Both the position numbers and the translations under genes were made by a program. From Modicisalibacter luteus DSM 23508 (GTDB taxonomy: Bacteria > Pseudomonadota > Gammaproteobacteria > Pseudomonadales > Halomonadaceae): DNA of 64,000 nucleotides. The stretch's first letter is position 1. Each line of letters starts with the position of its first letter. The notes under the pieces are model-generated. The model was not told where the DNA came from and did not search any database. It was given only the letters and a program-made list of their open reading frames with translations. The DNA lies in NCBI RefSeq assembly GCF_000378505.1, contig NZ_KB899992.1, positions 1 through 64,000 of the forward strand, given 5' to 3'. Shown piece after piece: positions 47,106-50,240 of this stretch.

Positions 47106-47454
47106 GTCGCTGCATTGTGCATGGAGAAAGTCTGCTGCGCAATGAGGCCGCTCGCTTCATACATCTTCCCTGATGAACATGACGGTAATGTCTTACATCA
47201 ATAGTTAACCTAGGTGGGCTTACAAAACCGTAAGGTGTGCGATATTGGCTTCGTTGAGCCGGGATGGCTCACTAGGGATCACGAGTAGGGATGCTCGCCC
47301 AAGGATGGGATTTACGTTAGGTTCCGCTTTACCTTTCCTGCGTTGTATCCTTTCGCTGAGCGTGATGTCGTCTGGCCGCGTCTCAGTAGAAGTGGCATAT
47401 CCATTCAATGCGTGCCTATGCTGTGACTTCATGGCTCGTTCCGGGAGTGGCTGG

Positions 47455-48123
47455 ATGCGGGGAACACAACCGCACCGATGGGTTACGCACGCTTTGCAGC
47501 TATGCCTCGTCGCTGAGGCTTTATTTGCCCTGTTTCATCAACACTGGTATCTGGCTGTACTCAGCCTGTTGGTCGTGCTCATCACCTTCTTTCCCGTTCT
47601 GTTTGAGCGCCAGTTCCATATTCGTACACCTCCTCCGCTTCAACTTTTGATCTTGGGTTTCGTGATTGCATCGCTTTTCCTGGGTGAGGGGAGAGGGTTC
47701 TATTCGCGTTTCTGGTGGTGGGATATCGTCCTGCATACCATAGCCGGTGGCCTGTTCAGTGCAGTGGGTTTCCTGCTGGCCTATGGAACCAATGGGATAG
47801 TACGCATCAGGGAATCGACCATGGTGCCGGGCTTCGTCGCGTTGTTCGCAATAATGTTTTCGCTTGGCATGAGCGTTATCTGGGAAATCTTCGAATTCGG
47901 TATGGATAGGCTGTTCGATACAAATATGCAGCGTGCCATGTTGAACGATCCCTCCGGCCTGACAGACACCATGTGGGATTTAATCATGAATGCCCTCGGC
48001 GCCCTGATGGTCTCCGTCCTGGGTTGGCGCTGCGTGAAGTATGCCAAGCAAGGTGTTTTCCTAAAGGATTGGATCGATACCTTCATCGAGCGTAACCCCA
48101 GACTATTCAAGAAGTCGCGTTAA
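47455..48123 (+). CDS. Integral membrane protein, unknown function
   Basis: 222 residues from ATG 47455, with GGGAG seven bases upstream; earlier in-frame starts back to 47245 would run into a region without coding character. Five to six hydrophobic helices. The stretch FWWWDIVLHTIAGGLFSAVGFLL and the later VIWEIFEFGMDRLFDTNMQRAMLNDPSGLTDTMWDLIMNALGALM resemble DUF2238/YjdF-like proteins, with conserved Trp-Glu and Asp residues near the membrane. Function not known. It is followed by yqhA on the same strand. Confidence 0.75.
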   Translation: MRGTQPHRWVTHALQLCLVAEALFALFHQHWYLAVLSLLVVLITFFPVLFERQFHIRTPPPLQLLILGFVIASLFLGEGRGFYSRFWWWDIVLHTIAGGLFSAVGFLLAYGTNGIVRIRESTMVPGFVALFAIMFSLGMSVIWEIFEFGMDRLFDTNMQRAMLNDPSGLTDTMWDLIMNALGALMVSVLGWRCVKYAKQGVFLKDWIDTFIERNPRLFKKSR

Positions 48124-48793: not shown

Positions 48794-48811
48794 TGTAAGT
48801 ATTTCCTTACA
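48794..48811 (+). promoter_or_regulatory. GacA-type upstream activating sequence, RNA gene A
   Basis: TGTAAGTATTTCCTTACA fits the Pseudomonas GacA box TGTAAG-N6-CTTACA exactly, with perfect arms. Its centre lies about 64 bp before the predicted start of RNA A, the usual distance for rsmY/rsmZ. Confidence 0.88.
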
Positions 48812-48865
48812 AAACACCGGCTATGGCTAACGTAGAAATTAATGTAATGAATGGCGATAATGTCG

Positions 48866-49016
48866 TTATGGGACAGACTGCCAGTCGTGGACAAGGCAAT
48901 CCCATAAGGAAACCGGTGAAAGATTCGCTCAATGTACCAAGGACGTGTGAGCAGGAGGCTCGCGGATGAAGAGAAGAGAGCTTTGCCGCCCAGTCTTTTC
49001 AGGCCGGGCTTATTTT
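48866..49016 (+). ncRNA. CsrB/RsmZ-like regulatory RNA A
   Basis: A GATAAT -10 box at 48856-48861 puts the start near 48866-48868. The RNA contains six GGA motifs (48871, 48889, 48908, 48941, 48954, 48964). One lies in the loop of GTGAGC-AGGAG-GCTCGC, and TTATGGG at the 5' end pairs with CCCATAA at 48901-48907. A terminator with stem GCCC-A-GTCT / AGGC-C-GGGC ends in TTATTTTG (48988-49016). Such RNAs titrate the translational repressor CsrA/RsmA. No plausible protein is encoded. The RNA shares the stretches ACCAAGGA, GAGCAGGA and GGCCGGGCTT with RNA B. Confidence 0.82.
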
Positions 49017-49075: not shown

Positions 49076-49099
49076 AAAAAAACCCGGCGTTAAGCCGGG
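49076..49099 (-). terminator. Orphan minus-strand terminator
   Basis: Read on the minus strand: CCCGGC-TTAAC-GCCGGG followed by seven T. No minus-strand protein gene ends here; the nearest is at 49827. It could end an unrecognised minus-strand RNA from 49100-49390, or read-through from the KGG gene. Confidence 0.75.
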
Positions 49100-49394: not shown

Positions 49395-49412
49395 TGTCAG
49401 CGATCTCTTACA
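49395..49412 (+). promoter_or_regulatory. GacA-type upstream activating sequence, RNA gene B
   Basis: TGTCAGCGATCTCTTACA differs from the GacA box TGTAAG-N6-CTTACA at one arm base. Its centre is about 56 bp before the predicted start of RNA B. Confidence 0.82.
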
Positions 49413-49458
49413 TGCGTTCCTAACGCAGGTTAGATAATCTTTCGCCTAAAATAGGCAC

Positions 49459-49607
49459 AGTGACTCACGTAGACATGGAAATGTCGCAATGGAACCCGGG
49501 CAAGGATGCCTGATGAACCAAGGATGCATGAGCAGGAAGGCTCATGAGTGGGCAGCAGGAAGCATCACGCCGCGCAAAGCCCGGCCTTCACAGGCCGGGC
49601 TTTATTA
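49459..49607 (+). ncRNA. CsrB/RsmZ-like regulatory RNA B
   Basis: A TAAAAT -10 box at 49447-49452 suggests a start near 49459. Six GGA motifs are present (49477, 49491, 49504, 49522, 49535, 49558). Three are in clear hairpin loops: ACAT-GGAA-ATGT, GGCA-AGGA-TGCC and CATGAGC-AGGAAG-GCTCATG. It ends in a strong terminator, stem AAAGCCCGGCC / GGCCGGGCTTT at 49576-49603 followed by TTATTA. Multiple looped GGA motifs, the GacA box and the terminator are the defining set of RsmX/Y/Z and CsrB RNAs. It probably sequesters CsrA/RsmA. The gap 49017-49394 before it shows only the minus-strand terminator. Confidence 0.88.
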
Positions 49608-49741: not shown

Positions 49742-49769
49742 ACTGCCAACGACCTTAGCCGTTGGCAGT
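49742..49769 (-). terminator. Hairpin after the KGG-repeat gene
   Basis: Arms ACTGCCAACG and CGTTGGCAGT (10 bp) with an eight-base loop. On the minus strand it is followed by AGTTGTTTCT, a weak T-rich tail. Confidence 0.6.
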
Positions 49770-49826: not shown

Positions 49827-50240
49827 TTAGGTATTGCGACCTCCGCCGTGACTGTGCTCACCGCCTTTCTTACCGGCTTCTGAAGCTTTCTCACGATCGT
49901 TTGCGAAGTTGCCGCCACTCTGCTGACCACCTTTCTGTCCAGCCTCAGAGGCTTTCTCGGGGTCATTGGCGAAGTTACCACCGCTATTTTGTCCGCCCTT
50001 TTGGCCAGCTTCAGAGGCCTTTTCAGGGTCATTCGCGAAGTTGCCACCACTATTCTGACCACCTTTATGGCCAATATCCTCGTAAAACTCCTTTCCATGA
50101 GTTTCCGAAGTGGCTTCACCACCTTTGTGGCCAATGTCTTCGTAAAATTCTTTGTCATGAGTGTTAGAAGTGGTCTCACCGCCTTTCTTGCCAGCTTCAT
50201 TTACGCTCATGTTGCTTTGGTTGCGTTTATCGTCTGCCAT
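49827..50240 (-). CDS. KGG-repeat stress protein (GsiB-like)
   Basis: 137 residues, fully hydrophilic, built of about seven repeats of 20 or so residues ending in KGG (EAGKKGG, DIGHKGG, EAGQKGG). The middle copies (NFANDPEKASEAGQ) are nearly identical. This is the pattern of GsiB and group 1 LEA-like proteins linked to desiccation, heat or osmotic stress; the protein is likely disordered in solution. ATG 50240 has AAGGAG eight bases before it. An alternative minus frame within the same DNA is an artefact of the repeats. A palindrome lies 31 bp upstream. A stress role fits a halophile. Confidence 0.9.
   Translation of the reverse strand: MADDKRNQSNMSVNEAGKKGGETTSNTHDKEFYEDIGHKGGEATSETHGKEFYEDIGHKGGQNSGGNFANDPEKASEAGQKGGQNSGGNFANDPEKASEAGQKGGQQSGGNFANDREKASEAGKKGGEHSHGGGRNT

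Follow-up and report, generated by a model that had tools for sequence, protein, structure and literature searches.

A probable CsrA-sequestering small RNA gene in Modicisalibacter luteus, apparently one of about seventeen sponge loci, with a GacA box and a second palindrome in its promoter

We examined a window of 64,000 nucleotides from Modicisalibacter luteus DSM 23508 (RefSeq assembly GCF_000378505.1, contig NZ_KB899992.1) and found that the region 49395-49607 very probably holds the gene of a non-coding, CsrA-sequestering RNA of about 140 nt, here called copy B (Table 1). The evidence supports a functional likeness of copy B to the CsrB/RsmXYZ class, yet outside the scored membership of the Rfam models of that class. 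In particular, the locus contains several A(N)GGA motifs, some of them in hairpin loops; it is intergenic, non-coding and closed by an intrinsic terminator; its promoter carries a GacA/UvrY box (1 mismatch); and the genome encodes both CsrA and GacA. The initial annotation had also read the region as a CsrA-sequestering RNA, and this interpretation is supported by homologues across the family, a covarying hairpin, a GacA-type regulator and three csrA genes. Judging from model matches, the genome appears to carry about seventeen such sponge genes, far above the two or three that are customary. What the sequence itself shows is the RNA family, a hairpin that covaries, the GacA box, the terminator, the model-based copy number, and a second palindrome with its position.

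Table 1. Positions of copy B, its promoter elements and neighbouring features in the window.
Feature	Position	Strand	Evidence
CsrA-sponge small RNA, copy B (probable)	49468..49607	+	models R1 and R2, six A(N)GGA, fold; start predicted
GacA box TGTCAGCGATCTCTTACA, centre about -64.5	49395..49412	+	1 mismatch to TGTAAGN6CTTACA
Second palindrome TAACGCAGGTTA, centre about -41.5	49421..49432	+	TAAC-N4-GTTA; combined module matched exactly (own genome)
Predicted -10, CACAGT	49456..49461	+	aligned position of extended -10 TGnCAnAnT
Conserved hairpin, AGGA in loop	49528..49545	+	covariation
Intrinsic terminator stem-loop	49576..49603	+	12-pair stem
Weaker copy A	48794..49016	+	box 48794-48811, core 48935-49016, R1 49.1 bits, R2 45.1 bits
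Possible third Gac-type array, terminator-less	47180..47320	+	module with 2 mismatches at 47191-47217
KGG stress-protein gene, convergent neighbour	49827..50240	-	Pfam PF10685, 140.8 bits

All six GGA triplets reported in the initial annotation were located between 49463 and 49607 (at 49477, 49491, 49504, 49522, 49535 and 49558), and the three clear hairpin loops were seen in the fold. Six triplets alone are unexceptional, being reached by 103 out of 1000 shuffles of 49463-49607; that all six stand in an A(N)GGA context was equalled by only 1 out of 1000 dinucleotide shuffles and by 1 of the 5480 fixed 145-nt windows of a 400 kb comparison sequence from the same genome. When a 150-nt window was slid along the DNA, the comparison sequence contained 5 arrays of at least six A(N)GGA (both strands) and the 64-kb window contained 1, so the array by itself is not unique. 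The strong terminator and the gap free of protein genes were also borne out: no ORF of at least 80 aa overlaps 49395-49607. A simple scanner run over the window missed this terminator and listed no sigma-70 promoter at copy B. The earlier reading of the promoter held in part: a -10 site is present, but the -10 conserved among the homologues lies at 49456-49461, which places the start at about 49468 rather than at 49459. The fold had a z of -2.6 from the earlier start (2 of 200 shuffles equally stable) and of -3.7 from the revised one (0 of 200).

The initial annotation had proposed a search of the Rfam models of the Csr/Rsm families, which returned none of them. At the gathering threshold, Rfam detected only a tRNA over the 64-kb window and no family in the 11 stretches that contain the remaining own loci, and copy B stayed below the score for CsrB (RF00018), RsmY (RF00195) and the other families. 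At a relaxed threshold the RsmY model scored 22 bits in copy B (cut-off 57), and the CsrB model RF00018 scored 33 bits in the paralogue C7a (cut-off 71). When 38 genomes were searched at the DNA level, relatives turned up in three genomes of the same genus besides the own one, the match in G008 covering the terminator only; the close relatives of copy B are in G001 and G009 (91 and 86 percent identity, respectively).

We describe the family by two models, whose E-values are approximate only. R1 was built from 18 aligned cores, partly from the own genome; because its training included own loci, R2 was trained on 35 sequences of other genera, and these were themselves R1 finds, so that the two models are not wholly independent. 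The core of copy B (49516-49607) scored 91.4 bits with R1 and 60.6 bits with R2, and the R2 maximum in the 400 kb comparison sequence was 21.2 bits. Homologues of the core occur also in other genera of Halomonadaceae: by a lenient count (R1, E of at most 0.05), 99 of 121 family genomes were represented among the matches listed.

The conserved hairpin carrying GGA showed 96.7 percent paired cells in the 35 sequences of other genera, and both sides had changed in 38 cells, where shuffles averaged 12.5 (0 of 500 reached the observed value). When the partner strand was slid out of register, the doubly changed cells fell to between 7 and 12. The first 18 cores gave 16 such cells against 4.7 in shuffles (0 of 500). 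Two other covariation measures were not above the shuffles of the 35 sequences, namely the doubly changed pairs (155 of 500) and the pair types (254 of 500).

With R1, 18 matches above 36 bits were detected in the own genome, corresponding to 17 loci once two adjacent matches on contig C32 were merged, and R2 recovered the identical 17 loci at an E of at most 1e-4 (19 rows). Copy numbers were taken after merging adjacent or overlapping rows and dropping an antisense row; raw R1 row counts were rejected as copy numbers, since they include terminator matches on the opposite strand. The R2 loci number 17 in M. luteus (G000), 14 in G001 and 13 in G009; three further genomes of the genus, G005, G010 and G013, gave none. 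For comparison, a set of two to three csrB/rsm genes is usual, according to excerpts of PMC6262261. The own loci show several A(N)GGA per copy and differ in quality: C17b and C24b have no recognisable box, and the terminator of C17b is poor by eye.

The GacA-like box of the initial annotation is present upstream of copy B. Boxes with at most 3 mismatches are no more than chance would give in the window (6, where 9.8 are expected), and we thus rejected the box alone as evidence; likewise, a related box pattern at 3 mismatches gave 43 matches in the whole genome against 53 for the reversed control. At most 1 mismatch was found in 2 boxes of the 64-kb window, compared with 1 box in the 400 kb of comparison sequence. 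For the homologues, we collected the 240 nt upstream of 62 cores (R1 above 36 bits) from the fetched loci of 12 genomes, leaving out two cores that were second matches within one RNA. Boxes with at most 2 mismatches were present in 28 of these 62 regions, against 0.4 in shuffles. Among the 17 own loci, 7 had a box at up to 2 mismatches and 12 at up to 3, and the best box of C24b, C11 and C17b had 4 or 5 mismatches. Neither the perfect box at C1:196348 nor the box with 1 mismatch at C2:387151 is accompanied by a GGA array.

These boxes also bear on whether copy B encodes a CsrA sponge at all. It could be a structured small RNA of another kind or a terminated leader (e.g. a base-pairing regulator) in which the GGA motifs are incidental, as might be suspected from the lack of any Csr/Rsm family at the Rfam threshold and from the 5 A(N)GGA arrays elsewhere in 400 kb. 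We consider this improbable: the AGGA loop stays constant and the stem varies in the 35 sequences of other genera, the own loci each carry several A(N)GGA, and GacA boxes stand upstream of the homologues. A CsrA sponge is the reading that we keep.

Between the box and the -10 we found a second palindrome, TAAC-N4-GTTA, which the initial annotation does not mention. Allowing 1 mismatch, 44 of the 62 upstream regions contain it, where shuffling would give 3.4, a count of 44 that is not independent because the palindrome was first spotted in the own promoters and the set holds these discovery promoters along with orthologous pairs. Combined with the end of the box as the module TCTTACA-N8-TAAC-N4-GTTA, it occurs at up to 2 mismatches in 16 places of the own genome: 12 at sponge genes, two at terminator-less arrays, and two elsewhere. 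Copy B matches the module with no mismatch, and the 400 kb comparison sequence contained no match at up to 2 mismatches. We discarded the module at 3 mismatches as a signal (37 matches, 34 in the reversed control); its value thus lies in the 16 matches at up to 2 mismatches. An extended -10, TGnCAnAnT, follows 20 nt 3' of the palindrome in 28 of the 44 promoters. With the +1 set seven nt after the -10, that is, with a start predicted from the alignment, the centre of the palindrome falls at -41.5 and that of the GacA box at -64.5. In class II promoters, Crp and Fnr occupy a site at -41.5, and the palindromic site found here would have that same centre if the predicted start is right.

We then considered the genes beside the sponges. 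A gene of the Crp/Fnr family is the nearest ORF on one side at 4 of the 17 own loci (C1b, C7b, C11 and C1c; L044, L050, L088 and L091), and another is situated some 2.8 kb away from C17a. One of these sponge-linked proteins matched FixK2 and FNR-type structures (E 6e-12 and 6e-11, respectively). A profile of the four genes found none in 464 kb (the 400 kb comparison sequence plus the window). Among the relatives, the loci fetched from G009, G008, G001 and G006 contained Crp/Fnr matches, as did 0 of the 10 fetched from G003, G011, G040, G048, G063, G085 and G127. The four Crp/Fnr-sponge pairs may descend from one duplicated unit. Elsewhere, at locus L094 (G009 C30:5297-8341), four sponge cores are packed into about 3 kb around an ORF of the Crp/Fnr family; an SRAP gene lies upstream of these cores, and the own C1a sponge likewise adjoins an SRAP gene.

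From the site, its position and the neighbouring genes we tentatively suggest that an activator of the Crp/Fnr family might use the palindrome at -41.5, so that the promoter would integrate the Gac signal with a second one; we regard this as possible and rather less than likely. The palindrome could also belong to the first input, as a second contact of GacA or a site for RNA polymerase, with no second regulator involved, an explanation that competes with the Crp/Fnr part only and that we hold to be quite plausible, if a little short of an even chance. UvrY crosslinks twice in E. coli csrB and csrC, once near the promoter (PMC4682653, in the excerpts available), and the palindrome also occurs in genera in which the loci fetched had no Crp/Fnr gene beside them. 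Both observations would fit a second GacA contact. The sequence of the palindrome and its 4-nt spacing are, however, unlike the GacA box, E. coli csrB and csrC lack such a palindrome at this position, and Crp/Fnr genes adjoin 4 of the 17 own loci and are absent from the 464 kb searched.

The regulators expected of a Csr/Rsm system were searched in the own genome. We found three csrA genes, of which C1 carries one and C12 a tandem pair, and a UvrY/GacA-type regulator at C4:338244-338873 that exceeded the NCBIfam cut-off; the best BarA/GacS match reached 630 bits (cut-off 890). The first csrA of the pair and a sponge gene point away from each other, and a perfect GacA box lies in the gap (L043, C12:21018-22068). 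Upstream of the second one (csrA3) there are a box with 1 mismatch and a site resembling the palindrome, together with a decayed-looking sponge promoter on the opposite strand. G001 has the same csrA/sponge gene order with a weak box (3 mismatches), and G009 has one csrA-sponge pair with a 2-mismatch box. Within the genus, an extra csrA was present only in the three most sponge-rich of 14 genomes, which may be one clade. Among 51 genomes, a full extra csrA was found in G000, G001, G009 and G048 (two full csrA in the latter), and weaker extra matches over the cut-off in G047 (47 bits) and G053 (36 bits, two pieces). A general co-expansion of csrA and sponges was rejected as a rule because G040, G063 and G085 have several sponge matches with R2 (9, 8 and 6, respectively) and one csrA each.

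Two further arrays lie in the window upstream of copy B. Copy A has a perfect GacA box, and the palindrome was looked for upstream of it and not found. It contains 3 A(N)GGA (reached by 409 of 1000 shuffles) and its fold has a z of 0.23, so that neither fold nor A(N)GGA count supports it as a gene equal to copy B. Between the two copies, on the minus strand at 49083-49099, there is a strong terminator-like hairpin followed by seven T. The array at 47180-47320 contains 5 GGA (84 of 1000 shuffles) and 3 A(N)GGA (76 of 1000), neither count being significant, has a fold with a z of -1.1, and gave no R1 match at an E of at most 1. It forms GGA hairpins, lacks a terminator and runs toward the ORF 47431-48123 (sub-threshold DUF2238 match); it is possibly a CsrA-binding leader or a truncated sponge. 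At L133 (C4:333834, minus strand) the module (1 mismatch) is likewise followed by a terminator-less A(N)GGA array, and CGCCCAAGGATGGGAT is common to this array and to that at 47180-47320. The initial annotation had mentioned stress genes nearby, and on the other side of copy B we identified a KGG stress-protein gene; such genes are convergent to both copy B and C1a. In both cases the sponge is separated from its KGG neighbour by near-identical 12-bp terminator-like inverted repeats (49742-49769 and L044/C1a).

The state of copy A raises the question of whether copy B could itself be a decaying duplicate, built as a sponge and no longer transcribed or needed among 17 copies. The poor fold and few A(N)GGA of the adjacent copy A, the decayed-looking sponge promoter beside csrA3, and the wide range of copy numbers within the genus (0 to 17) would all be in line with such decay. 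We judge it nevertheless to be a slim prospect for copy B, which retains its box, a palindrome within a mismatch-free module, its hairpins and its terminator, and which has close relatives in G001 and G009 at the identities given above.

A functional copy B would act as follows, and here transcription, CsrA binding and GacA dependence are extrapolated from established knowledge of Csr/Rsm systems. Phosphorylated GacA would bind the box at -64.5 and switch on transcription of the sponge RNA; the RNA would offer six A(N)GGA sites, three of them in hairpin loops, and would titrate CsrA dimers off mRNAs. Copy B would be one of 17 sponge loci that have the same three CsrA proteins as their target. 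More speculatively, and with more doubt than confidence, the sponges of Halomonadaceae could constitute a dispersed, hyper-expanded regulon, in which the promoters would be logic gates of GacA at -64.5 and Crp/Fnr at -41.5, with activator genes adjoining several sponges, csrA duplicated with a divergent sponge in one lineage, and terminator-less arrays heading possible mRNAs. If this were true, the same type of promoter region would face both the CsrA regulator and its sponge in one lineage.

In the open-access literature searched, as far as its accessible parts go, we found no description of sponge RNAs in Halomonas. Halomonas anticariensis has GacS-GacA, and its sRNAs are entered as unknown in the table of a 2020 review (PMC7366521, as excerpted); CsrA binding has been modelled in Halomonas hydrothermalis, with the sponge RNAs left for later work in the portion of PMC12889724 consulted. 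Our analysis supplies candidate sponge RNAs of the Halomonas Gac system and a family-wide model. The seventeen loci raise the question of why one cell needs so many CsrA sponges, and the palindrome at -41.5 offers a testable candidate for a second input to Csr control.

Compared with known systems, copy B resembles RsmX, RsmY and RsmZ of Pseudomonas and Azotobacter, which are short RNAs with A(N)GGA hairpins, a terminator and a GacA box. It differs from them in its low RsmY score (22 bits where 57 are needed) and in the 17 loci; the palindrome at -41.5 may be a further difference, the promoter comparison having covered E. coli csrB and csrC. The largest sponge set met in the literature consulted is that of A. 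vinelandii, with RsmZ1-7 and RsmY1-2 (PMC7366521, in part); the excerpt of PMC4824345 names RsmZ1-7 and RsmY. CsrB and CsrC of E. coli belong to the same CsrA-sequestering class, and the csrB box TGTGAGAGATCTCTTACA resembles the M. luteus boxes. That box is centred at -182.5 instead of -64.5, csrB scores 9.8 bits with R2, and both E. coli genes lack the palindrome at -41.5, csrB having a 1-mismatch one at -122.5. The sibling csrB genes of Vibrio are, like the M. luteus set, multicopy sponges that arose by duplication, with two to four copies against the 17 loci here (PMC6262261, from the sections available). Finally, promoters of the narG type offer a parallel to the proposed arrangement, with a regulator of the NarL/FixJ family upstream and Fnr at -41 (PMC4682653, again in part); in narG, NarL is at -190 with IHF in between, whereas here the box precedes the palindrome by 23 bp and the second regulator is putative.
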